From a virus: a stretch of DNA of 21,951 nucleotides. The notes below the pieces were generated by a model. That model saw only the letters and a list, made by a program, of their open reading frames with translations, searched no databases and was not told the DNA's origin. How positions within the stretch are numbered: position 1 is the stretch's first letter; every line of letters starts with the position of its first letter. The stretch is taken from positions 1 through 21,951 of the IMG/VR virus record IMGVR_UViG_3300033994_001890; one strand, given 5' to 3'. Positions 3,389 through 21,951 of the stretch are shown here, in pieces. The translations under genes were made by a program, and so were the position numbers.

Positions 3389-4639
3389 ATGCCCGATTCT
3401 GCTGGAGCACTCACCCTTCGCTACGCGCAAGGCGAAGTATTTTCCAGCCGAAAACGCTTCAGAGTGTTGGTAGCTGGCCGAAGGTTCGGCAAAAGTTATC
3501 TGTCATGTATCGAGTTATTGCGTGGGGCGATCGAAAGGCCGGGCGAAACTTTTTTCTATGCCGCGCCTACATACCGGATGGCGAAAGACATTGCCTGGAA
3601 GGTAATGAAACGCCTCGTCCCGAAAGCTTGGATCAAAGCAAAGAACGAGACCGACCTCAAGATCGAGCTAGTGAACGGCTCGACCATCGAACTGAAGGGC
3701 ACTGAAAACGCAATGGCCCTCCGAGGCCGCAGCTTGGCTGGCGTGGTGCTAGACGAAGCCGCCTTCATGGACGCCGAGGTCTGGTTCGAGGTAATCCGCC
3801 CCGCCCTTGCGGACAAACAAGGCTGGGCACTATTCATCTCCACCCCGGATGGCACCGCCAGCTGGTTTTACGACCTCTGGTGCTATTGCGAGGAAGGCGA
3901 TAAGGACTGGCAGCGGTGGCAATTCACCACGATTGACGGCGATAACGTCCCACCGGAAGAAATCGAAGCCGCCCGCGCCCAACTCGACCCCCGCACCTTC
4001 CGCCAAGAATTCGAAGCCAGCTTCGAGAATCTCAGCGGTCTTGTTGCTGTTTCATTCGGCGACGACAACATCGATAAACAAGTCCAAGACCTACCCGTTT
4101 TACCCCTATTGCTTGGAGTGGACTTCAATGTGAGTCCGATGACGGCTGTCTGCGCCGTCAAAAAAGGCGAAGACTTGTGGGTATTTGACGAGATCGTACT
4201 GACTGGTGGAGCGACCACCTGGGACCTCTGCGAGGAGGTCCAGAACCGCTTTGGCGTAGAGCGCCGCGTGATCGCCTGCCCGGACCCTACAGGAGGCGCC
4301 AGGAAGACCTCAGGCGTTGGCGCAACCGACCACAACATCCTCCGCAAATCCGGTTTTACGGTCTCCAGCCCCCGATCTCCCTGGGCCATTCGTGACAAAA
4401 TCACGGCTGTCAACACAGCGCTGCTAGATGCGTCTGGACGCCGCCGGTTATTTATAAATCCAAAATGCAAAGAGTTAATTAAGTCTCTACGCACACTCAC
4501 ATACGCACCCAATTCACAACTACCCAACAAAAATTTAGGTGTAGATCATAGTTTTGACGCTCTGGGCTATATGTGTTTGCAGGTATTTAACCTTGCAAAA
4601 GGTGAAAACATCGGAAAAACTAACTATAGAGTTTGGTAG
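3389..4639 (+). CDS. terL: Terminase large subunit (packaging ATPase-nuclease)
   Basis: A 416-residue packaging motor. The ATPase domain shows a Walker A motif AGRRFGKS (residues 29-36), Walker B VVLDEA (119-124, with D122 and E123) and a coupling motif FISTPDG (149-155). The RNase-H-like nuclease domain has GVDFNVSP (D245), a second acidic site CPDP (D299) and DHSFDALGY (D386, D390), a plausible metal-binding set. It cuts concatemeric DNA and pumps it through the portal. It is compact compared with typical 450-550 residue homologues because the N-terminal adenine-binding region is short. The last 60 codons or so (about 4440-4639) are visibly AT-richer than the rest, next to an HNH endonuclease gene whose 3' end overlaps by 20 bases. 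Confidence 0.95.
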   Translation: MPDSAGALTLRYAQGEVFSSRKRFRVLVAGRRFGKSYLSCIELLRGAIERPGETFFYAAPTYRMAKDIAWKVMKRLVPKAWIKAKNETDLKIELVNGSTIELKGTENAMALRGRSLAGVVLDEAAFMDAEVWFEVIRPALADKQGWALFISTPDGTASWFYDLWCYCEEGDKDWQRWQFTTIDGDNVPPEEIEAARAQLDPRTFRQEFEASFENLSGLVAVSFGDDNIDKQVQDLPVLPLLLGVDFNVSPMTAVCAVKKGEDLWVFDEIVLTGGATTWDLCEEVQNRFGVERRVIACPDPTGGARKTSGVGATDHNILRKSGFTVSSPRSPWAIRDKITAVNTALLDASGRRRLFINPKCKELIKSLRTLTYAPNSQLPNKNLGVDHSFDALGYMCLQVFNLAKGENIGKTNYRVW

Positions 4640-5129
4640 CATTTACCTCTTTTTGTCTAGCACGCCACGCACGCATTTTGGCCCTGTTATTGCACCGTTT
4701 GCAGCAAAATTTTTGCCTAAAATTAGTAGGTTTAAACTCGCTGAAGCACTCCGTGCACTGAAGGATGCCCTTGCTTGCCATAAGCGCGTCAAAATGCTCT
4801 TTATGCCATTTACTGCCCTCTTCCGATTTATGCCAAGCTTTTGCTGCCTCTTTACCTAATTGTTGAATAGTACGCATATGTTCTTTTGCTCTTTCCGTGG
4901 AACTGTGCGCGCGTACGTGCTCCTTTCCATCTACAAGCTGTAAGTTGTCGATCTCATTATTTCGCCGGTTTTGGTCGATGTGATGCACGTGGTGGCCAGC
5001 TGGGACGGGGCCGTTATGGGCTTCCCACACATCTACATGAAGCCTCCGTGGCGCAACAAGTCCTTTGTGCCTCGCGTAGTACCGCCCGTCCCAGTAATAC
5101 TCATGCTCACCGACTGTTATCCGGTCCAT
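4620..5129 (-). CDS. HNH endonuclease, probably homing type
   Basis: A 169-residue protein on the opposite strand to its neighbours. It has an HNH_3-type core at about residues 28-75 (LHVDVWEAHNGPVPAGHHVHHIDQ, then NNEIDNLQLV) with catalytic-type histidines H49/H50 and the asparagine NEIDNL. The C-terminal half carries a likely zinc-binding knuckle (C125-x2-C128 and C142/C143, C146) followed by a basic tail. Such free-standing enzymes often sit next to conserved phage genes, cut alleles lacking them and spread by repair. Its 3' end invades the terL 3' end, and its base composition is AT-richer than the surrounding genes, consistent with acquisition. TACCCT lies 23 bases before the ATG. A packaging-associated HNH role is the alternative. 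Confidence 0.9.
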   Translation of the reverse strand: MDRITVGEHEYYWDGRYYARHKGLVAPRRLHVDVWEAHNGPVPAGHHVHHIDQNRRNNEIDNLQLVDGKEHVRAHSSTERAKEHMRTIQQLGKEAAKAWHKSEEGSKWHKEHFDALMASKGILQCTECFSEFKPTNFRQKFCCKRCNNRAKMRAWRARQKEVNATKLYS

Positions 5130-5577: not shown

Positions 5578-5928
5578 ATGGCCGCCAAAGCAATCACCAC
5601 TAAGGATTACTTCACCAACATCGTTGAATACACCGGCGCAAACTTGACCGCTGTAAACGACTGGATGGAAGTCTCCGCTCAGTCTTCCAGCTACACCTTT
5701 GCGGCCACTGTTACCGGCGGCGCCAACTTCCAACTAGCCCTGGAATGCAGTTTCAACGGTAACGGCAACTGGTTCACCATCGACAACGGCAAAACCATCA
5801 ATTCCAACGGCCAATACGTCTACTTCTATGACGGCAAACCTGCCGCCAAGATCCGTATGCGCATTGACTCCATCAGCTCTGGTACCCCCACGGTGGTACC
5901 CCACATTGCAGTCGCTTATCACGGCTAA
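5578..5928 (+). CDS. Hypothetical structural-type protein, 116 aa
   Basis: A 116-residue protein with alternating polar/hydrophobic beta-strand patterns, many Asn/Gly/Thr residues and almost no charged clusters (NFQLALECSFNGNGNWFTIDNG, YVYFYDGKPAAKIRMRIDSISSGT). This is typical of a beta-sandwich virion decoration or fibre-like protein. GGAG lies ten bases before ATG. It follows the basic small genes by 14 bases and overlaps the next start by one base (TAATG). A head decoration role is possible given the position just before the portal-scaffold-capsid block, but I do not recognise the family. Confidence 0.7.
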   Translation: MAAKAITTKDYFTNIVEYTGANLTAVNDWMEVSAQSSSYTFAATVTGGANFQLALECSFNGNGNWFTIDNGKTINSNGQYVYFYDGKPAAKIRMRIDSISSGTPTVVPHIAVAYHG

Positions 5929-6125
5929 TGGCAATCCAAACAGTGAACGGAGGCTGTATTCACATCGAAATTGATGCTGAAGACGGCCTCACCCACGCCA
6001 CATTCGTCTTCAAATCACCCCAAAATCCAGAAATCTTGGGCGGTTTCGTAGCAATGCTTGCCCAAGGCATTGAAGTGCTGGTGCCAATCTCCGATCCTGA
6101 CGACGAGGAAGACGACGATGATTGA
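5928..6125 (+). CDS. Small acidic protein, 65 aa
   Basis: A 65-residue protein that starts on the last base of the previous stop codon (TAATG) and ends with a run of acidic residues (SDPDDEEDDDD). The body looks like a small alpha/beta unit (CIHIEIDAEDGLTHATFVFKS). Strong negative charge contrasts with the three very basic small proteins around it, so it may pair with one of them or mimic nucleic acid; that is inference. Its end overlaps the next gene by eight bases. Confidence 0.65.
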   Translation: MAIQTVNGGCIHIEIDAEDGLTHATFVFKSPQNPEILGGFVAMLAQGIEVLVPISDPDDEEDDDD

Positions 6126-6390
6126 GTATCGCGGCGAAAAGTTTTCGGGCTACAACAAACCCAAGCGCACCCCAAACCACCCCAATAAATCACACGTCGT
6201 TTTAGCAAAAGAAGGCGATAAGGTAAAACTTATCCGCTTCGGCCAACAAGGAGTTTCTGGTTCACCCAAACGCGAAGGTGAATCAACCGCAAATAAAGCC
6301 CGCCGCGAAGCCTTCAAAGCACGCCACGCAGATAACATCGCCAAAGGAAAAATGTCCGCCGCCCACTGGGCAAACAAAACCAAGTGGTGA
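6118..6390 (+). CDS. Small basic phage protein, 90 aa
   Basis: A 90-residue basic protein. The ATG at 6118 overlaps the previous gene by eight bases; the open frame extends further upstream, but only within that gene. Segments VVLAKEGDKVKLIRFGQQGVSG, ARREAFKARHADNIAKGKMSAAHWANKTKW look like a small conserved phage family with a KARHxxNIAKGKMSxxxWAxKxKW ending that I recall from several tailed phages without assigned function. It is the last of the five coupled small genes before the portal and may be a virion-associated or DNA-binding protein. Confidence 0.75.
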   Translation: MIEYRGEKFSGYNKPKRTPNHPNKSHVVLAKEGDKVKLIRFGQQGVSGSPKREGESTANKARREAFKARHADNIAKGKMSAAHWANKTKW

Positions 6391-12216: not shown

Positions 12217-12243
12217 CCCAACAACGTTCATTTGGTACGCCCT

Positions 12244-13017
12244 ATGGCCACCACCGTTCTGTCCGGCACGTCCGGCGCCCTCTACTACAAACCCGCTGGT
12301 ACCACCGGCACCTTCGGCGAAACCGGTGTCAACACTGGCACCGACGTAATCACCGTTGCCCCTTACCTGAATTTCAAAGTAGGCGACCCGGTTAAGTTCC
12401 GCGTGGTGAACAGCCAAACCGGCGGCACCGGCAGCGGGACCCTGCCTGCGCCCATCTCTGACGCCACCACCTACTACGTGCTGAGCTACACCGCTGCCAC
12501 TGGTGCACTCACCGTGTCCACTTCTGCCGGCGGCACCATCCTGGCCATTACCGACGACGGCACGGCTGTTGCCCCCAACGAGTTCGAGGTGTATTACGCC
12601 GACTACGCAGTTGTCGGCCAAGTCCGCGACTGGAGCTTCGAAATCAGCCGCGCCGAAATCGACGTCACTACCATCGGCCAAACCCCCGGCCAGTACGTGC
12701 CCTTCCGCAGCTACATCAGTGGTTTCGGTGATGGCACCGGGACCGCAACGGTCTACATGACCAACGAGGACGCCGCCCTGTCCAACCGCATGATCGAGGA
12801 CGTGCTCCAGCGCCAGCAAAACGGCGCCGCCTTTAAGCTTTACACCGACCGCGTGTTTAGCGGCGGCACCCTGAGTGAGAGCCTGAGCCGTTCGATTGCC
12901 TTTGATGCAGTGCTGACCTCGGCCAGCCTGAACATCAACCCCGACGACGCCCAATCGGTAACTGTCAACTTCCGCCCTGCTGGCACCCCGACCTTCGACT
13001 TCAGCACCTCCGCCTGA
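12244..13017 (+). CDS. Major tail tube protein with inserted domain
   Basis: A 257-residue protein. ATG 12244 is chosen; a TTG four codons upstream is also in frame but less likely. The tube core reads TSGALYYKPAG at the N-terminus and resumes at VGQVRDWSFEISRAEIDVTTIG and GDGTGTATVYMTNED, ending in DAQSVTVNFRPAG. Between residues about 30 and 115 a separate beta module is inserted (DVITVAPYLNFKVGDPVKFRV, then DATTYYVLSYTAATGALTVS, GTILAITDDGTA), a phage surface-type domain that would decorate the tube. Strong C-ending codon use and a private terminator fit high expression. A shorter paralogue without the insertion lies at 21569. Confidence 0.85.
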   Translation: MATTVLSGTSGALYYKPAGTTGTFGETGVNTGTDVITVAPYLNFKVGDPVKFRVVNSQTGGTGSGTLPAPISDATTYYVLSYTAATGALTVSTSAGGTILAITDDGTAVAPNEFEVYYADYAVVGQVRDWSFEISRAEIDVTTIGQTPGQYVPFRSYISGFGDGTGTATVYMTNEDAALSNRMIEDVLQRQQNGAAFKLYTDRVFSGGTLSESLSRSIAFDAVLTSASLNINPDDAQSVTVNFRPAGTPTFDFSTSA

Positions 13018-13113: not shown

Positions 13114-13455
13114 ATGCCCGTTCCTGTACGCGCAATCGACCGTCTCCGCAAGGCCGCCAACCTGGAGCCGACCAAAAAAGTAGTGGAGCTTTCCGACGGC
13201 AGCAAATTTGAAATGTGGGTGACGCCAATGACGATGGCTGAGCGCGAACGCGCCCAAAAGCAGGCCAAGTCCGACGATGCCAACGCCTTTGCACTTCAAC
13301 TGCTGATCGCCAAAGCCCTCGATGAGTCCGGAGCCAAACTCTTCAACATCGGTGAAGTGGACGTCCTGAAAAACGAAGTGAAGGACAAAGATCTACAAGC
13401 TTTGATGTTGGCAATCCTGACCGACGACGCCGAGCCCATCGACCCAAAATCCTGA
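13114..13455 (+). CDS. Tail assembly chaperone, short (gpG-like) product
   Basis: A 113-residue protein translated without frameshift. Features are VVELSDGSKFEMWVTPMTMAERERAQKQAKSDD, then helical segments ANAFALQLLIAKALDESGAKLF and DLQALMLAILTDDAEP, the layout of siphovirus tail chaperones located between the tube and tape measure genes. These proteins coat the tape measure and recruit tube subunits. Its 3' end holds a slippery heptamer in the correct frame, and the downstream -1 frame encodes a T-type extension. It has its own promoter-like box after the tube terminator. Confidence 0.88.
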   Translation: MPVPVRAIDRLRKAANLEPTKKVVELSDGSKFEMWVTPMTMAERERAQKQAKSDDANAFALQLLIAKALDESGAKLFNIGEVDVLKNEVKDKDLQALMLAILTDDAEPIDPKS

Positions 13456-13666: not shown

Positions 13667-13692
13667 GAAGTACCAGAGTGTGGCGTGGAGCC

Positions 13693-16600
13693 GTGGCCTA
13701 CAGAGCCGATATTGAAATTGCGGTACGTGGCGCCCAAGACCTTAAGCGGCTTCAGAACGAAGTATCTGCAACATCAAAACTTGTAAATCAGCTAAGCAAC
13801 TACCTAGAAAACATAGGTAGCGGAGGCATTGTTCGAAACATCAATAATTTACGTGATGTCGTAGGCCGCGCAGCTGCTGCGTTTAACGAAGCCGCTTTGG
13901 GCACAGATGAAGCAACTATTGCAGCGAAAAAATACATAACAGCAACAAACGAACTTAATACCGGCTTACGTGAAAGAGCTGAGCTACTAAAACAAATCAC
14001 TGAGCAGGAGCGAAAAGCGAAGCTTGCTGCCGCTGGCGTAAGAGAGACTACGCAATACGCTGGTCCTATCGGCCCCGGCCAAGCTTCGGCAGTTGCACTA
14101 TCTTCACAACTGCGCGGACGAACGGAGCAGATACTTGCCGAACGTAAAGGACGTACTGAGCTAAATGCTGTACTACAAGACCAATTTGAACGAGAGCGTC
14201 AGCTTGCTAATTCGAAGCTAGATGCGCAAGCAGCAAAAGTTCAAGCTGCTCTAGAAGCTCAAGCAGACGCCGCCGCCGAAAGCGCTAATCAGACACAAAA
14301 ACTCGCAGATAGACAGCAAGAATTTACACAGCGTACAGAGGCTGCAGCTCGCGCAGCTCGTACACAAACTGCTGAGTTTATCCGCCAACAAAGGCTACAA
14401 AAAGAGTTTTTAAGGGGTCAGACAGTCGGAACGGTTGAATTCGCGCCAGGTGGGCCAGGATTCAGCGGCGGCTTTACAAGAGGACAACGAGAAGCCGCAA
14501 ACGCACAAGCAATACTTAAAACAAAACAACAAGAAAACGCGGTTAGGCGAGAAACTCTACAGTTAATAACCAGAGAAGAACTATTTGAAATCAAACTCAA
14601 CAAAGTACTAGAGCGCAATGCTACTGCCGTTGCCAAACGAGCGACAGGTAGAAAACAAGCATCTGAAGCAGCAGGTAATGCCATCATTGGCGGCGCGTTT
14701 CCCTTACTTTTCGGTCAAGGACTTGGTGCAGCTGTCGGTGGTGGCGCAGGCGGTGCCATTGGAGGCGCATTAGGAGGCTCTTTTGGTTTCGGCTTATCTC
14801 TTGTAGGCACTGCACTAGGTAGCGCTTTTGATACAGCCGCTAATTCTGCTAGAGATTTTGCAAAAGCTTTGCGCGGAACCGGGGATGCCACGCAGAGTCT
14901 TGAAGCTCTGCTAGGAGGCTTAAATCCTCAAACGCGCACCCTTATAGCTAACCTTCAAAGCAGTGGGCAGACAGCACGCGCTGCCGAGGTAGCCTTTAAC
15001 GAACTCAGCAACGTAATCGGAAGGGAAAATACAAAGGCTCTTCAAGACGCAGGTAACGGCTGGGACAACTTTGGCAAGCAAGTTAAAACTACACTCACTT
15101 TAATCACAGCTGAGGTTATTAAAACGTTTAAGGAAATTGAACGTACTAATCCTCAAAAAGGAGGTTTTTCTATTGCCAGTTTTATAGGCCAAGTTGCTCT
15201 GCAAGGAGAGAAGCGGCAACAGGCTGCTGCTGCTGTTACTCCAGAAGCTGCCCAAAGAGCCGCTGGTTTACAGCAAGAAACAGACCAGCTACGTACACAG
15301 GCTGCCTTAACTACACTAAGCGCAAAAAACAATCTGAACCTGTTTGTGTACACGTCGCAAAGACTTATACAACAGGAACGTATTAGTCGAGAAGCTGAAA
15401 TAGAGTACAAATTTGTACAGGGACAAATTAGCGCTAAAGAGCGTTTGATCTTATTGGATCAAAGCCGCTTAAAGACACAAATAGATCTTAATAGTATTGA
15501 AAGACAGCGCATTGAAGAGTTACAACGCCGTCAAGAGGAAGCAGCCCGAAAAGCAGAAGAAAACGCACGTAAACAAGAACAAACAGTAAAAAATATATTG
15601 GGTTTGCAGGTAGAACTAAGCCAGATAACTTTAGATGCAGCTGACGTGGATGTAAGCCGTACATCCGTTGTAGAGGGTCAGCTGGCGGGATTAAAAGAAG
15701 CTTTAGGACAACAACAAGCACGGTTAAATGTCGAAGGGCGTATTCTTGATTTACAGCTAGAGCAAAAGTTACTCTCGGCTGATTTATCCGCACAAGAGAA
15801 AAATTTGCTTACTGCTGTTTATAATCAACAAAGAGCTAATTTAGAGAGCCAAGCTAAAACCAAAGCCCGTTTGCTTCAGCTTGATATTGCGCGGCTAGAA
15901 GCGGCCCGTGCTATTGCGGTCACTGAAGGGCCTAGACAGCTACAGGATATTAACCAGCAGAGGGGAAGTCAACTTGAGCGTATTCAAGCTCAACTAGCCA
16001 ATCCACTAGGCGGTGAAGCGTTAACGCAGCTTAATCAGCAGTTAGATCAAGCTGCACGACGGTATGAAACACTTGTTCCTCTAGAAAGACAATTAGCGGA
16101 CTACCAAATAGAACGCGTTGCCATAGCTTCTACAGCGTCCGAAGAAGATCTAGCTTTGCTGGATGGGCGCATAACTAACACTAAAAATGCTATCCAACTA
16201 GAGCAGCAGTACCTATCTCAAATACAAGCTTCTGAGCAAGCTTTGCTGAGACAACAGCAATTTATGGATCGCTATGGGCAACTTATACAGGGTGTCAGTG
16301 ACCAGGTTGCGGGTTTAATCACCGCGAATCTATCTGAAATTATCCGTGGAACAAAAACAGCCCAACAGGTGTTTGTTGAATTTCTGAATACCGTCGGTAA
16401 TGCTTTGTTGCAAACAGCTCAACAAATGATTTCTCAATATATCGCACTGGGTATCGCCAAATTGTTTGCTTTCGGGTCAAGCGGTTCGGGTTTTGGTTTT
16501 TCTGGTGCAGGACCAGTTTCGGGAGCTTCGGTATTCGGCAGCGGGCAAGCTGGCTTTAATCCAGCGGCATTTACAGGTGGCTTTGGTTTTCGTGCTAACG

Positions 16601-16935
16601 GTGGACCCGTAAGTAATCAGCTGCCCTACATCGTTGGTGAGCGCGGTCCTGAACTGTTTGTCCCAGGAACCGGCGGTAGCGTCGTTCCAACCAACGACCT
16701 CCGCGCTGCAATGGGCGCTGCACCCGGTAGCCGCGCTGGATCACCCGTGCTTAACATGAGCTTTGAAACCACCAACATTGGCGGGGTGGAGTACGTCAGC
16801 CGCGATCAACTCGAAGCCGCAATGGCTACCACCCGCCGCCAAGCCGCCAGCGACGGCGCCAAACGCGGCATGTCCATGACGTTGGATCGTATCCAGCAGT
16901 CACCCCAAACCCGTAACCGCTTGGGTCTCCGCTGA
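13693..16935 (+). CDS. Tail tape measure protein
   Basis: A 1080-residue protein (a GTG five codons earlier is an alternative start). It sets tail length by extending through the tube and enters the host envelope at infection. Long coiled-coil stretches rich in Gln/Ala/Arg/Glu cover about residues 15-290 and 530-870. A glycine-rich hydrophobic segment (about 330-385, GAAVGGGAGGAIGGALGGSFGFGLSLVG) is the probable membrane-interacting part. The C-terminus has the conserved GGPVSNQLPYIVGERGPELFVPGTGG motif (about 970-996). Codons across 13740-16600 are AT-rich (TTA, ACA, AAA, GCT) and differ from the GC-rich C-terminal 110 codons, suggesting recombination. Confidence 0.93.
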   Translation: MAYRADIEIAVRGAQDLKRLQNEVSATSKLVNQLSNYLENIGSGGIVRNINNLRDVVGRAAAAFNEAALGTDEATIAAKKYITATNELNTGLRERAELLKQITEQERKAKLAAAGVRETTQYAGPIGPGQASAVALSSQLRGRTEQILAERKGRTELNAVLQDQFERERQLANSKLDAQAAKVQAALEAQADAAAESANQTQKLADRQQEFTQRTEAAARAARTQTAEFIRQQRLQKEFLRGQTVGTVEFAPGGPGFSGGFTRGQREAANAQAILKTKQQENAVRRETLQLITREELFEIKLNKVLERNATAVAKRATGRKQASEAAGNAIIGGAFPLLFGQGLGAAVGGGAGGAIGGALGGSFGFGLSLVGTALGSAFDTAANSARDFAKALRGTGDATQSLEALLGGLNPQTRTLIANLQSSGQTARAAEVAFNELSNVIGRENTKALQDAGNGWDNFGKQVKTTLTLITAEVIKTFKEIERTNPQKGGFSIASFIGQVALQGEKRQQAAAAVTPEAAQRAAGLQQETDQLRTQAALTTLSAKNNLNLFVYTSQRLIQQERISREAEIEYKFVQGQISAKERLILLDQSRLKTQIDLNSIERQRIEELQRRQEEAARKAEENARKQEQTVKNILGLQVELSQITLDAADVDVSRTSVVEGQLAGLKEALGQQQARLNVEGRILDLQLEQKLLSADLSAQEKNLLTAVYNQQRANLESQAKTKARLLQLDIARLEAARAIAVTEGPRQLQDINQQRGSQLERIQAQLANPLGGEALTQLNQQLDQAARRYETLVPLERQLADYQIERVAIASTASEEDLALLDGRITNTKNAIQLEQQYLSQIQASEQALLRQQQFMDRYGQLIQGVSDQVAGLITANLSEIIRGTKTAQQVFVEFLNTVGNALLQTAQQMISQYIALGIAKLFAFGSSGSGFGFSGAGPVSGASVFGSGQAGFNPAAFTGGFGFRANGGPVSNQLPYIVGERGPELFVPGTGGSVVPTNDLRAAMGAAPGSRAGSPVLNMSFETTNIGGVEYVSRDQLEAAMATTRRQAASDGAKRGMSMTLDRIQQSPQTRNRLGLR

Positions 16936-17324
16936 TGGCACGTTTCCCATCCTTAAAACCAACGTCTAGGAGCTACACAGCGGGCAACTATCCATCAAAG
17001 GAATATCGCTCCCTGTCAGGCGTTGTCGCTAAACGTAGCTTCGGCAACCGCGCTACTGGTTATGCACTGGAAGTGGAGTTTGCCAACATCAGTCAAAGCG
17101 ACATGCGATCAATTTTGAATCACTACGAGGGTGAAAACGGCACCCTCAATTCTTTTACGTTGCCGACTACCCTGACTGCCGGTTACGGCACAGCCGCGAG
17201 CAACGATCTACTGGAACCAAACGCCGCAATCCGCTGGTTCTACGCAGAACCACCACAAATCCAAAGCGTCTTGCGCGACTTAAGCACTGTCCGTGTGCGG
17301 TTTATCGGGGAGCTAGCACAGTAA
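16935..17324 (+). CDS. Minor tail protein, lambda gpM position
   Basis: A 129-residue protein beginning on the last base of the tape measure stop (TGATG). The sequence FPSLKPTSRSYTAGNYPSKEYRSLSG then EVEFANISQSDMRSILNHYEGENGTLNSFTLP resembles short distal tail proteins with a FPSxxPTSRSYTPGxYP opening. By order it is equivalent to lambda gpM at the tail tip, the first of four overlapping genes that assemble the tip complex. Exact function is inferred from order, not from a motif. Confidence 0.75.
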   Translation: MARFPSLKPTSRSYTAGNYPSKEYRSLSGVVAKRSFGNRATGYALEVEFANISQSDMRSILNHYEGENGTLNSFTLPTTLTAGYGTAASNDLLEPNAAIRWFYAEPPQIQSVLRDLSTVRVRFIGELAQ

Positions 17325-17788
17325 TGGCAGTCATCAGAATCGCCCAGTACTTTTATCTGCGCGATACAGACAACAATCGTTACGCGTTTCAGAACTACTT
17401 CGTCCAGCAAACAAAAACGCTAAACGGCCTCAAATACACCTTTGCCCCTTTTCGCGCAGAAGGCACTGTTTCAAACCTGACTGGAGACAACGCACTACTG
17501 CAGGTACTTTTTCCAGCAGAACCGTTCGCCATCAAACTTGTCGAACAAGCCGATGGTAACCGTCTAACTCGCCTGACCCTGACAACACAGTGGCTTAACG
17601 CCAGTGAGAACACAGTGCGCTCGTACGAGGAACGTTACGTGGGCATTGGCGCCAGTGTTTCCGACACCACATTGGAGCTGCGTTTTAGATCCGCAATGGA
17701 CAGCGTTGGAGCACAATTTCCGCGTCAGACACTGACCTTGCGAAATGTGGGTCCATTACCAACAAGCACCCAGATATCGTTGCAGTGA
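17324..17788 (+). CDS. Minor tail protein, lambda gpL position
   Basis: A 154-residue beta-rich protein starting at TAATG overlap with the previous gene. It has regular strands (RIAQYFYLRDTDNNRYAFQNYF, GLKYTFAPFRAEGTV, RLTRLTLTTQWLNASENTV), and the C-terminal half ends with LRNVGPLPTSTQISLQ. It lacks the iron-sulfur cysteines known for lambda gpL and is shorter, so homology is not claimed, only position. It is probably a tail-tip hub subunit connecting the preceding gpM-position protein to the large tip protein. Confidence 0.68.
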   Translation: MAVIRIAQYFYLRDTDNNRYAFQNYFVQQTKTLNGLKYTFAPFRAEGTVSNLTGDNALLQVLFPAEPFAIKLVEQADGNRLTRLTLTTQWLNASENTVRSYEERYVGIGASVSDTTLELRFRSAMDSVGAQFPRQTLTLRNVGPLPTSTQISLQ

Positions 17789-18174
17789 TTGACACCAACG
17801 AGTTCATCGGACTAACCAGGGCTTGGGGCGCATTACCTGGAGACGGAAGCGGTCAGATTGACTGCTGCGCTCTTGCCGCCGAGATCCACAAGCGGCTTGG
17901 CTACTGGGACTATGGACCAGAACTGCGCCAAATTTTCGCCAAATTTGACGATGAGACCTTGCCGCCCAAGTTCATCGCCAAGTGGCTGGTTAAAAACGGC
18001 AAGCGTCTCGAAAAGCCAGAGCCTCACGCCGTTGTACTGCTGCCTAGTCCAGGCGTTGGCGCTCTCGGTACAGTAATGGAAGACATGACCGTGCTTTTTA
18101 TCGGTCCCGGCGGTAAGGTCATCCGATCCGCCCTTCCTGCAAACGACGGCTGGTACTTCAGGCTGAACAAATGA
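17785..18174 (+). CDS. NlpC/P60-like tail protein, possibly degenerate
   Basis: A 129-residue protein, start GTG in a GTGA overlap. The segment GSGQIDCCALAAEIHKRLGYWDYG has the cysteine in the setting of NlpC/P60-type tail peptidases (D-C-x-x-L), and the gene sits where lambda K lies, before the large tip protein. The C-terminal beta part (HAVVLLPSPGVGALGTVMEDMTVLFIGPGGKVIRS) aligns by eye with the region that normally has the catalytic His (SHVGI-like), but GTVME stands in its place. The enzyme may be inactive and structural, or my alignment may be off; the only nearby histidine is HAVVLL. Confidence 0.65.
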   Translation: MIDTNEFIGLTRAWGALPGDGSGQIDCCALAAEIHKRLGYWDYGPELRQIFAKFDDETLPPKFIAKWLVKNGKRLEKPEPHAVVLLPSPGVGALGTVMEDMTVLFIGPGGKVIRSALPANDGWYFRLNK

Positions 18175-21100
18175 CCCGCAAGCTCCTGCCTTACGAGTAC
18201 CAACTGATTGAAGCGCTCGGCATCAGCAAAGACGAGTACCTGGACTTTATTGCCGCAGCACCACTATACGAAGACCCTAAAGAGGGCACCGTTTTAGATA
18301 TTCGCAACGCCGAAGCAACAGTAGCTCTGGTGCTCACTATTGTTGGCATCCTATTTCAGGTTGCATCAGTACTACTTACTCCCCGTCCTGAAATACCAAC
18401 TACAAGAGGTGTTGGTCAATCAAGAGACCAACGTTTTGCACCGCGTTTTGGTTTTAACGGAGCACAAGAGCTAGCGAATTATGGTGATCCACTGCCGCTT
18501 ATTTACACAAACACAAGTATCAATTCTCGTGGTGGCGTTCGTGTAAGCACAGCGCTGCTCTGGAGTGCTGTTCTTAGTTACGGCGGCAACCAGTTCATGC
18601 GTCTAATGCTGAGCATTGGCGCAGGCAAGATCGGCGCCATCGACATTTACCGTAGTGCTCTGGGACAACTGCCGTTGCGCGACTACACGCAGAGCAACCT
18701 TTGGGCATATTTCAACGACAACAGTTACACAAAATACGCACAACTTGCAACGGCAGTAAACACATTCCAAGACCCGACTCGCGTTGGATCTGCAAGTCGT
18801 CCCACGGCACGCCTTACAACACTGGCAGGGCAGCAAGACAAATTCGGCTTTAGCCAGGCTTACGCACCAACTACCAGCGTTTCGTGTGGTGTAACAGCCG
18901 TCATCCCGATCAATGTTCAGGTGATGGTGATTAACCCGAACGGAGATCGCAGGCGCTTCAACGTAGACACACAACTAACTCCTAATACAACGTACTGGCC
19001 CACGAGCGGTGTGCGCCCCAACATCCCAGTTGGTACCCAGTTCACCATTAAGATCCAGCAAACAATACGACTAACTCAAGCCGAAAGAGATCTTTTTAGT
19101 ACTGAAGGAATTGGTCGTTATGCAAAAGAATCAGCATTTACAGCACGTCGCGCAGAAGCCTCTGCTCTGTTTGAAGGCGCACGCTTCAAAATAGGATCCG
19201 CTATTTTGCGTCTAATCAGCGTCGATAATACTGAGACAGATCAAGGCGTGGTGACTGCAACGTTTACTTGCGAACGTCGCGGCAAATTCCCTGCCGCCCC
19301 ATACGCTTCCACCCACTGGATCGAAGACACAGAAGACGAAATAGCAAAACAAAAAAGCATCATCAAACAACAAGAAAATACAATCGCTATCCTCAACAAA
19401 GACAAAGAAGACCTTCAGTACTATCAAGATTTTCTAGCACGCGTTGTAATAAGCAAATACTCTAATTTTAACCAGTTTAATCCCGCTGTTGAAAAATACC
19501 GCAGCCTTGCCTCGAGCGTTAATATCGGCAAAAAAGATGTAAAAGTTATGTTACGTTACGTCGAAAAAAGCATAAAAGAAGCCGAGGAAACTTTAGCTAA
19601 AGCAGAAACTCGACTTGACTCCCTTAAGGACCAAGGCAGCTTAAAAAGCATCCAAGCCTTGTACACCAAGTGCATGGCGCACATCGAAGAGGCGCAGTAC
19701 GCATCAACAACCAAATGCCATGTTGTTGATTTTGCCTTAAAGATACGGGCTTACCGCCGTCTTAGCGGTCGTGCGGATGTTTACGGAAGTGAGCAAGAAG
19801 ATTACGGAGATAGCGCCAGTGAAAATGGTCCACAGCCACGGACGGTCATGTTCCGCATGTATTGGCGTTTCGCTGGCACAACTGAATACACAAGTATCCC
19901 CTATATTTTCTGCGTTCGTAACAGCACCGAACAAGACGTATTTACTTACGTAAAACTCGTCCACGCCAATGCAGCGTTTACACAACCTAAGGCTGCACAG
20001 TATTGGGAAGTCAAATTCGAACCCGTCCTGGAGCCCGGAGCGGAACCCTCGATCACAAAGTATTGCTACCTGCAACAAACAGGTAAGGAGCGGCGCTTAC
20101 CCGCTGGCACCAGTGATGTACACGTAATGTTTAACGGCACAGTCTACGACTTTACCACTTATCCACCGATTAACAAGACAGCGGAAAACCTAACCGAGTG
20201 GGACTTGTTCAACTACGACTCCAATTCTCAGAGTCAGTTTTCCTACGAACAGGGACCGGAAGTAAATATAACAGCCGTAAACGAACAACTTCTGGAGCCC
20301 TGGAACAATTACAGCGACAGGTTGTACAACGGCATCAGCACCCTAGGTTTGCACCTGTTTGCGTCTAAGGCGACTGAAAGTTTGCGCAGCGTTAGCGTCT
20401 GGGTTACACAAGGCAAGTTACTTCGCCCACTGTCACTGAACCCGGCAGACTACGACCAAGACAGCGAAATAAATGCCCTGGTCAATAGCGCACCATCAGC
20501 TTCATCAAGCTACGCGCCAGATATCTTCCTAGATACCATCCTGGACAAAGAAAACGGCATCGGGCAGTACGCCGATATCCATTCCGTTGATGTCCCGCAG
20601 CTCGCCAAAACAAAACGTTTTTGCCGTACAAACAAGCTGTACATGGACGGCATTATTGCTGACCAACGTAGTTGGCGCGAATTTTGGGCACAGACAGCAC
20701 CGTTCAGTCTGCTGGAGCTAGCAAAAATCGGCGGGCGTGACACGCTGGTACCGGGCGTCCCTTACAACGAGACAACCGGAGAAATCAACCCGAACATCCA
20801 AGTATCTGCGCTATTTACTGCGGGCAATATCCTGGAAGATTCTTACAAAGAAGAATTTCTGGATTACGGCGCCAGTGTGCAGGACACGGTTGTGTCAGCC
20901 ATTTACCGCGACACGGAAAACAACGACGTGTTCCCCCGTAACGCCAGTGTCCAAGTCCATCTAAAGGAAGTTGATCCAGATGCAGCCGTACTTGAGACAC
21001 TTGATCTTTCCCAGTACGTAACACGCCGCGAACAAGCAATCCTGCTGGCAAAGTTTTTGTGCCTCAGCAAGCACTACATCCGCCGGGCAATCGAGTTCAA

Positions 21101-21536
21101 GACCTTCCCTACTGACAGTCCCGTCTTCCCTGGCGCGTACATCTATGTCGAAATTGGCCTGAACCAGTGGAACTCGATTTATAGCGGACGAGTAGAAGGC
21201 GGCGGCTTCTTAAACGCACCGTTACCGCGTCAGGTGCCAGACGGTCAGTACACAGTATTCCTGTACCGGCAAGGCAACGGCACTTTTGCCTGCACCAACG
21301 TCCAGGTTGCCAACGGTTACGCACCGCAAATCAAAAGCTACGAAGGTGCGCTCTTCGTATTGGGCAACGCGATTCTGAGCAAGCGCGTATTCCGAGTCAC
21401 AGAAGTGATCATGGACGAGGAAGGCGAAACCACGATCAAAGCCGTGGAACACCAAACCGATTCCAGTGGACGGTCGCAGATCGCCAAACGATTGACCAGC
21501 GCCAACGAGTTTTACGTGGATGGTGCGCTTAGCTAG
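18171..21536 (+). CDS. Tail tip / central hub protein, gpJ-like
   Basis: A 1121-residue protein, about the length of lambda gpJ, starting in an ATGA overlap. A hydrophobic helix at residues 46-68 (TVALVLTIVGILFQVASVLL) followed by a Pro-rich PRPEIP resembles the N-terminal gpI-like anchor often fused to hub proteins. The hub core shows NYGDPLPLIYTNTSINSRGGVRVSTAL and later SVWVTQGKLLRPLS. A coiled-coil module near residues 383-500 (EDEIAKQKSIIKQQENTIAILNK and KSIKEAEETLAKAETRLDS) interrupts it. The C-terminal part is beta-rich and would carry host recognition or tip fibres. Codon use shifts to AT-rich in the coiled-coil part. Confidence 0.85.
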   Translation: MTRKLLPYEYQLIEALGISKDEYLDFIAAAPLYEDPKEGTVLDIRNAEATVALVLTIVGILFQVASVLLTPRPEIPTTRGVGQSRDQRFAPRFGFNGAQELANYGDPLPLIYTNTSINSRGGVRVSTALLWSAVLSYGGNQFMRLMLSIGAGKIGAIDIYRSALGQLPLRDYTQSNLWAYFNDNSYTKYAQLATAVNTFQDPTRVGSASRPTARLTTLAGQQDKFGFSQAYAPTTSVSCGVTAVIPINVQVMVINPNGDRRRFNVDTQLTPNTTYWPTSGVRPNIPVGTQFTIKIQQTIRLTQAERDLFSTEGIGRYAKESAFTARRAEASALFEGARFKIGSAILRLISVDNTETDQGVVTATFTCERRGKFPAAPYASTHWIEDTEDEIAKQKSIIKQQENTIAILNKDKEDLQYYQDFLARVVISKYSNFNQFNPAVEKYRSLASSVNIGKKDVKVMLRYVEKSIKEAEETLAKAETRLDSLKDQGSLKSIQALYTKCMAHIEEAQYASTTKCHVVDFALKIRAYRRLSGRADVYGSEQEDYGDSASENGPQPRTVMFRMYWRFAGTTEYTSIPYIFCVRNSTEQDVFTYVKLVHANAAFTQPKAAQYWEVKFEPVLEPGAEPSITKYCYLQQTGKERRLPAGTSDVHVMFNGTVYDFTTYPPINKTAENLTEWDLFNYDSNSQSQFSYEQGPEVNITAVNEQLLEPWNNYSDRLYNGISTLGLHLFASKATESLRSVSVWVTQGKLLRPLSLNPADYDQDSEINALVNSAPSASSSYAPDIFLDTILDKENGIGQYADIHSVDVPQLAKTKRFCRTNKLYMDGIIADQRSWREFWAQTAPFSLLELAKIGGRDTLVPGVPYNETTGEINPNIQVSALFTAGNILEDSYKEEFLDYGASVQDTVVSAIYRDTENNDVFPRNASVQVHLKEVDPDAAVLETLDLSQYVTRREQAILLAKFLCLSKHYIRRAIEFKTFPTDSPVFPGAYIYVEIGLNQWNSIYSGRVEGGGFLNAPLPRQVPDGQYTVFLYRQGNGTFACTNVQVANGYAPQIKSYEGALFVLGNAILSKRVFRVTEVIMDEEGETTIKAVEHQTDSSGRSQIAKRLTSANEFYVDGALS

Positions 21537-21568: not shown

Positions 21569-21951
21569 ATGGGCTTCTACACCGGGCGCACCGGCGCCAT
21601 GTACTTTTACGACAGCACTGAAAATCTTTCCAGTGCAGTAGCTGGCGCACCGGAAGCCAACAAAAAACTGCTGAAATTGCGTGACTGGTCCATCGAAACC
21701 AGCTTGGAGCTGCTTGAAACTACAACCATTGATACTGCCGTAAAGAGCTATACACCCGGCATGGTTAGTGCCAATGGCAGCGCCACGGTGCTGTACTACA
21801 GGAGTGAAGCAGGTGATGTCGGTAAGCAGTTCAACAAGCTTCTGGACAACATCATGAAAACCAGCACCGCAGGTATTACGACGTCAGATCGGTGCGGTTT
21901 TATCCTCCGAGCTGGTACGCAAACAGGCACGGGTGTCGACATTAAAGACGA
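21569..21951 (+). CDS. Tail-tube-like paralogue, partial (3' end missing)
   Basis: The first 127 codons are in the window, with no stop before the edge. The N-terminus (YTGRTGAMYFYDSTEN) parallels the tube protein start (TSGALYYKPAG). The core LRDWSIETSLELLETTTIDTAVKSYTPG, then SANGSATVLYYRSE and KQFNKLLDNIMK, aligns with VRDWSFEISRAEIDVTTIG, DGTGTATVYMTNED and NRMIEDVLQ of the protein at 12244. It lacks the roughly 85-residue inserted domain. It may form a specialised tube ring at the tip or a fibre-attachment module. It has its own promoter-like sequence. Confidence 0.8.
   Translation, partial: MGFYTGRTGAMYFYDSTENLSSAVAGAPEANKKLLKLRDWSIETSLELLETTTIDTAVKSYTPGMVSANGSATVLYYRSEAGDVGKQFNKLLDNIMKTSTAGITTSDRCGFILRAGTQTGTGVDIKD

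Follow-up and report, generated by a model that had tools for sequence, protein, structure and literature searches.

A pair of tube-like genes, here called B and C, follows the tail tip gene and goes with the tip module in a group of uncultured phages. We suggest, by analogy with p140 of phage T5, that their products are distal tube-fold rings which seat the side fibres, and we would put the probability of this reading at about one half. The window, i.e., the whole stretch of 21,951 nucleotides that was analysed, ends inside the first of the two genes; an overlapping contig, L002, completes B and supplies C. The features of the tail region are as follows.

12244..13017, plus strand: A, the shaft tail tube protein, whose first strand is followed by an insert of about 100 residues; the tube gene in Cyanophage KBS-S-2A is 73% identical to it
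13114..13455, plus strand: tail assembly chaperone-like gene (phrog_344, E 7.8e-5)
13678..16935, plus strand: tape measure protein candidate (position, size and swap pattern)
16935..17324, plus strand: M-like minor tail protein, a distal ring candidate (phrog_15525, E 4.9e-21)
17324..17788, plus strand: L-like hub protein candidate (position; phrog_25799, of unknown function, E 1e-11)
17785..18174, plus strand: K-like peptidase candidate (position and a putative motif)
18171..21536, plus strand: J', type II tail tip / central fibre protein, 1121 aa (phrog_27845, E 6e-10; phrog_31, central tail fiber J, E 1e-6)
21569..21951, plus strand: B, paralogue with a predicted tail-tube fold, first 127 of 166 aa; complete in L002:6281-6781
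L002:6781-7653, the gene after B: C, a third tube-like protein, 290 aa

The ORF of A opens at 12232, and the ATG at 12244 is the start common to most aligned relatives; a relative of the chaperone-like gene also lies after A in KBS-S-2A. Pfam gave nothing informative for the tape measure candidate and, at E 0.1, no match for the M-like protein, which we liken to lambda gpM, and family searches found no match for the K-like protein, which presumably carries a peptidase motif. J' matches the tail protein of Microcystis phage Mic1 (E 3e-10), whose tip was its sole match in the phage collection. Since the closest cultured relative of A is that of Cyanophage KBS-S-2A, the uncultured viruses that carry B and C probably have cyanobacterial hosts. 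Elsewhere in the window, an ORF on the minus strand at the end of the terminase gene (4620-5129) contains the motif HHIDQNRRNN and is taken by us to resemble an HNH homing endonuclease.

In its truncated form B is an ORF of 127 aa (21569-21949, plus strand) with an ATG start, cut off by the end of the 21,951-base virus record. A preliminary description had read it as a second tube-like gene from the motif RDWS.E.S...TTI and an ATV strand region, which it has in common with A (ORF at 12232/12244). This likeness is borne out, the second shared stretch being G(S/T)ATV: BLASTP aligned the two with 18/68 identical residues (E 1e-5, a single comparison), and their Smith-Waterman score of 70 was reached by 0/2,000 shuffles (mean 35, sd 5.8, maximum 67). 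The window contains 162 stop-to-stop ORFs of 60 aa or more, and among them A was the best non-self match of the fragment, the next one scoring 43. An IMG/VR scan yielded 39 loci with relatives, and contig L002, identical to the window across 6,663/6,663 overlapping bases, supplied the missing end. Completed in this way, B has 166 aa and a stronger homology to A (Smith-Waterman 112; 0/1,000 shuffles as high), and in an hhalign alignment of the family profiles its end TSASVQVGTGELSSVAIQFTVDG is aligned with A's end TSASLNINPDDAQSVTVNFRPAG. The alignments also bear out that the roughly 100-residue insert after A's first strand is absent from B, whose mean column identity is 73%.

Profile HMMs of the three proteins (6 rows for A, 28 for B and 26 for C), searched against the ORFs of ten records and loci, match one another's members, the weakest being A to C (8e-5 to 0.02). 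By hhalign, B aligns with A over 116 columns (95%, E 3.6e-8) and with C (80%, E 1.4e-5), and C aligns with A (52%, E 1.4e-4). That the likeness of the fragment to the tube protein might be a short chance segment could be argued from the raw pair, which shows 26% identity over 68 residues only; this is refuted by the shuffles, by the full-length profile alignment and by the match in fold described below, and has next to no probability left. We conclude from the sequence comparisons that B is a true homologue of A. For C, the single-pair comparison with A is marginal (4/1,000 shuffles as high), and the claim of homology therefore rests on profiles, at which level the tube-protein homology of its core holds. 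C is laid out like A, with a first strand, an insert of about 110 residues and a tube core, and has in addition a conserved C-terminal tail whose median identity, 76%, equals that of the fibre N-terminus. Where one tube-like protein after the tip had been described there are in fact two, as C directly follows B.

Comparisons with known families point in the same direction. All of the B members (24/24) match the major tail protein family phrog_10528 at E<=0.1, the best at 1.1e-5, and at the same threshold C members match phrog_1407 (7/25) and phrog_10528 (6/25). The divergent B of locus L206 finds two proteins annotated as major tail / tail tube in cultured phages, one in Sinorhizobium phage phi3LM21 and one in Roseobacter phage CRP-811 (E 4e-4 and 4e-3). 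Pfam tube models were matched only below their cut-offs, by the B proteins of L157 and L206 and by the C of L002 (E 0.019), and at E 0.1 there was no Pfam match for the B of L002. By sequence, B does not fall in the distal tail protein (gpM / Dit) class: the L002 B has no match to PF05939 at E 0.1, the M-like HMM at E 1e-3 had no B among the matches listed, and a separate M-like gene is present. A tblastn search of the L002 B against 50,697 phage records at E<=1 returned only Synechococcus phage S-H1 (E 0.4) and no T5-type record, and C had no match in phage records at this threshold; a PDB sequence search with B, C and the tip gave nothing relevant, and no relative of B turned up in one scan of bacterial genomes. 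In single-pair comparisons, B and C mostly match the short tubes of S-H1 and of phage MED4-117 more strongly than they match A. In a tree in which 13/23 inner branches are open and several rows are long, A, B and C each form one group on a long stem, with support of 85/72 for B and a weak join of A and B (78/75). A recent duplication of A as the origin of B was considered and is unsupported, given the long stems and this weak join.

The fold of B is predicted to be that of a tube protein. The AlphaFold2 model built from the B alignment is of medium confidence (pLDDT 66, pTM 0.65), and its first Foldseek match in the PDB is lambda gpV (8k36_A, E 8.9e-6, probability 1.00), so that structure prediction upheld the tube fold and gave no different one; the model's 30 PDB matches at E<=0.001 are chains of phage tails, tail-like particles, necks and baseplates. 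VIA-align gave a Z of 9.5 to the Sf11 tail (rmsd 4.7, 140 aligned) and of 8.7 to several tube, baseplate or neck chains, to be read against a common background for this tool of 7-8, an unrelated oxidoreductase scoring 7.7 against B. In BFVD, B had 101 matches at E<=0.001 and, among the matches listed, those with names are often major tail / tail tube proteins. The model of C is well predicted only in the insert (about residues 20-128), the tube part being poor (mean pLDDT 51), and with the tube part so modelled its matches are weak (best Foldseek E 8.8e-3 and none at E<=0.001; VIA Z up to 6), although tubes and Hcp are frequent among them. Fold alone does not separate gpM from gpV.

The order of tip, B, C and fibre is fixed across the group. 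Our locus set comprises 216 uncultured loci with a profile match, the window included; most were fetched with B or C, and some contigs enter as more than one locus. B is present in 145/145 loci whose tip ORF is complete and is followed by 900 nt or more, and the earlier observation that it lies after the large tip gene, away from the usual tube place, extends to 155/155 loci showing both; that usual place, between the head-tail genes and the tape measure, is occupied by A. Both B and C were found in 152 loci (104 distinct B ORFs), always B then C, followed by the fibre N-terminus in 117/117 loci with at least 400 nt beyond C; in the 130 loci showing both, the opening of the fibre frame falls in a span from 42 nt upstream to 38 nt downstream of C's end. 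The same holds in the set fetched with A alone (80 loci), where B follows 21/21 finished type II tips with room for it, 20 of the tips being distinct. In the 50 distinct loci with placeable starts, B and C overlap by 4 nt (40 loci) or 1 nt (7) or are separated by 2 nt (3), and because the genes overlap or abut, their translation is probably coupled. A sublineage of 15 loci, two of which are one contig, has the M-like gene after the tip and before B. Relatives of B and C are encoded in 206 and 433 matched IMG/VR stretches, respectively.

Evidence on the module to which B and C belong comes from phages in which parts of the tail have been swapped. Among 25 loci fetched with A that have at least 9.5 kb after it, 21 have B and C and four (L163, L181, L194 and L209) have neither. 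The A proteins of these four are 85-93% identical to the window's, as are their capsids at 81-89% in the three loci where the capsid gene is included; the window's M, L, K and tip are unmatched in them, save for one short tip stretch (L163, E 1.5e-4), and its tape measure is only partly matched. Their ORFs read as a lambda-type M-L-K-I-J series, with M and K not listed for L209; the M of L163 is Phage_min_tail (PF05939, E 8.9e-24), and the remaining letters are our presumption by position and likeness. KBS-S-2A is lambda-type as well and lacks B and C. Neither in KBS-S-2A nor in the four lambda-type loci did the A, B and C HMMs find a further tube-like gene after A, which argues that A can serve as the tube alone. 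The tip of L209 (10727-14313) has near its N-terminus what we take to be an intein/Hint-type domain.

The opposite case occurs as well. When 20 chosen long records were searched whole, 17 had A, B and C once each, one (G014) had A alone, about 5 kb from the record end, and two (G004 and G012) had B and C with A absent. Stretches of 20 and 19 kb from these two A-less records (L222 and L223) match the C-part of the window's tape measure and its M, L, K and tip at 43-62%, but the window's terminase, portal, scaffold, capsid, A and chaperone go unmatched in both, the one weak A match in L223 being B itself; nor do the whole records match the window's capsid or portal protein. L223 has a tube candidate (phrog_1407 major tail protein, E 5e-4), of which L222 holds a relative that is 40% identical and has no family match. 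Because each occurs without the other in swapped phages, A needs no B or C, and B and C need no A. Judged by these gene contents, it is the tip module, and not the shaft tube, that B and C go with, and the swap point falls after the chaperone gene and either before or inside the tape measure. As a side observation, locus L157 has a window-like terminase (92%), portal (97%) and A (95%) and a diverged part from tape measure to tip, and similar head genes, A and chaperone are joined to very different distal modules in this locus and the four lambda-type ones.

A further line of evidence is co-divergence, measured as the Spearman correlation of pairwise distances in 22 non-identical loci with all six genes (34 before the removal of repeats), the 231 locus pairs being non-independent. 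B correlates with C at 0.89 and with the fibre N-terminus at 0.86, and C with the fibre N-terminus at 0.89; the values for B are 0.67 with the tip, 0.65 with M and 0.01 with A (Mantel p 0.40), which is itself highly conserved (median identity 79%). The N-terminal third of the tip tracks B at 0.81 and C at 0.80, and the tip's last 130 columns, some 20-60 nt from B, track B at only 0.51. This adjacent tip end thus tracks B less than do the tip's N-terminal third and the fibre N-terminus, which is separated from B by all of C; from physical linkage alone one would expect the opposite. The pattern was kept in leave-one-out ranges and in a 14-locus subset; when the loci L148 and L155 are dropped, B tracks tip (0.79) and fibre (0.78) alike, and A at 0.12. 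Co-divergence is support and not proof, as a co-inherited cassette free of contacts gives much the same signal.

How, then, might B and C act? Even without them the tail seems to have its full usual stack (tube, M ring and hub), to which B and C would add extra tube-fold units. On the most likely reading they would form one or two rings at the distal tail that hold the side fibres, with the C-terminal tail of C as the likely fibre contact and B, which lacks A's insert, as a functional look-alike of T5 p140. We infer their presence in the virion, the ring form, the position, the copy number and the docking of fibres. The preliminary description had proposed for B a terminal ring, a second tube segment or a base for receptor-binding proteins; the ring and the base fit its neighbours, its link with the tip module and the way it diverges together with the fibre N-terminus, and the second tube segment is less likely, as the same A occurs with a lambda-type tip in phages that have neither B nor C. 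Two comparisons speak against a role in mounting fibres. Mic1 has a related tip and no B or C detectable with the A, B and C HMMs, and the genes after the tip in KBS-S-2A include a weakly similar fibre N-terminus (26-34 bits) and no B or C, so that this fibre type may not need them.

Distal-ring tube paralogues are already known from T5 and T4. In the cited account of T5, p140 is an undecorated tube paralogue between the tube and the distal protein, ringed by the lateral-fibre collar, to which its authors tie the missing decoration (PMC10038345). B is likewise a paralogue of its own phage's tube without the decoration domain of the shaft tube, and would, like p140, sit at the distal end of a tail whose tip carries side fibres. 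B further differs from p140 in having one tube domain, in being encoded after the tip gene, in accompanying a tip that resembles Mic1's, and in its partner, which is the tube-like C where T5 has the Ig-fold p132. The authors of the T5 account regard p140/p132 as a landmark of T5-like phages only and expect fibre anchoring to differ outside that family, notably in lambdoid phages (PMC10038345). In T4, the hexameric rings of gp48 and gp54 are described as the hub for tube polymerization (PMC8718954); they are, as B and C would be, two extra tube-type rings, lying at the tube-baseplate junction, but they belong to a contractile phage and serve as a polymerization hub. Lambda gpM is reported as a distal ring with a topology identical to that of the gpV tube domain (PMC10721106), and the B model folds like gpV, but type II phages already have an M-like gene, to which B and C are additional. 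The BTC of the archaeal virus HFTV1 is described as an additional ring that separates the hub from the final hexamer of the tube, and its two homologous domains as the likely products of a gene duplication followed by fusion (PMC12494034); unlike B and C, it is one fused trimer.

Among cultured phages, S-H1 also has two tube paralogues in one phage, and its tubes match C, alone among the five compared, but both genes lie before the tape measure, in the usual place; they stand in tandem (L041:32532-33373), are 48% identical and are both annotated hypothetical. MED4-117 was considered as a second phage with two tubes and rejected: the ends of its record (L043:1-1048 and 38091-38834) carry near-identical copies of the gene next to the tube, with one tube-like frame each, and a single gene has probably been annotated twice there as a 'major tail protein'. 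In Mic1, an abundant tail tube protein, ORF20, is reported to be encoded after the tip (PMC7156551); the gene (L045 13975-14613, minus strand) is not before the tape measure and is unmatched by the A, B and C HMMs. Tube-fold genes after the tip are therefore not confined to B and C. ORF27 of Mic1, directly after the tip, was tried as a B-like candidate and rejected as M-like (phrog_15525, E 4.7e-12). Two further observations concern tube-like sequences at other places. Locus L164, whose module looks lambda-type and is incomplete, has a 134-aa tube-like ORF (5887-6291; phrog_10528, E 4.4e-13) between the tape measure and the M-like gene, a different place from that of B and C. In some relatives, part of A's insert (decoration) domain is matched without the tube part downstream of the fibre gene (L014:11489-12094, L086:9712-10305, L089:9622-10116 and G008:12519-12656).

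The main rival of the fibre-seating rings, which we consider unlikely, places B and C in line with the shaft tube, as spacer rings or initiator rings that join it to the hub and take no direct part in holding fibres. Such rings would agree with the tube fold of B, with the extra tube-like ORF of L164, and with how closely both proteins track the N-terminal third of the tip, all the more as B follows tip and fibre alike once L148 and L155 are left out; yet the B and C genes lie after the tip and beside the fibre, the co-divergence in the 22 loci is strongest among B, C and the fibre N-terminus, and an M-like gene to cap the tube is present anyway. To our knowledge, the genes of T4 gp48 and gp54 do not lie beside fibre genes. 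The two rings are a precedent for the spacer or initiator role in the cited work (PMC8718954).

It is quite improbable that B, or B and C together, make up the main or a second shaft tube of type II phages, with A as a minor component: B has the size of an ordinary tube protein and the abundant tube of Mic1 is likewise encoded after the tip in the available description (PMC7156551), but A is the highly conserved one, and KBS-S-2A and the four lambda-type loci have no other tube-like gene after it by the HMMs. We give an equally slim chance to B and C being non-structural assembly factors or fibre chaperones with a tube-like fold. Their place directly before the fibre gene and their tight spacing would suit such a role, against which the conservation of B fits a structural part without being proof of one. 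We know of no chaperone with a tube fold.

With somewhat less confidence than in the rings themselves, we propose that these genes are part of a self-contained cassette for mounting fibres, in which two old, diverged tube paralogues would link the hub to the side fibres as an adaptor and move with the tip between phages of different heads and shaft tubes. Our literature search, made mostly among freely accessible papers, brought up p140 of T5 and the rings of T4 and returned no report of an overlapping pair of tube genes after the tip that moves with it across backbones. For many siphophages the mode of side-fibre attachment is not settled, and a study of phage LSH1 from 2026 states, in the text available, that the attachment site could not be found (PMC13243795). 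B and C are small candidates for this role in an abundant group of uncultured phages. If our reading is true, they would represent a second, independent solution to side-fibre attachment in siphophages beside p140/p132 of T5, with the tube fold reused within one tail and the tip cassette moving as a unit; such a mobile cassette would also be relevant to the prediction of host range from sequence.
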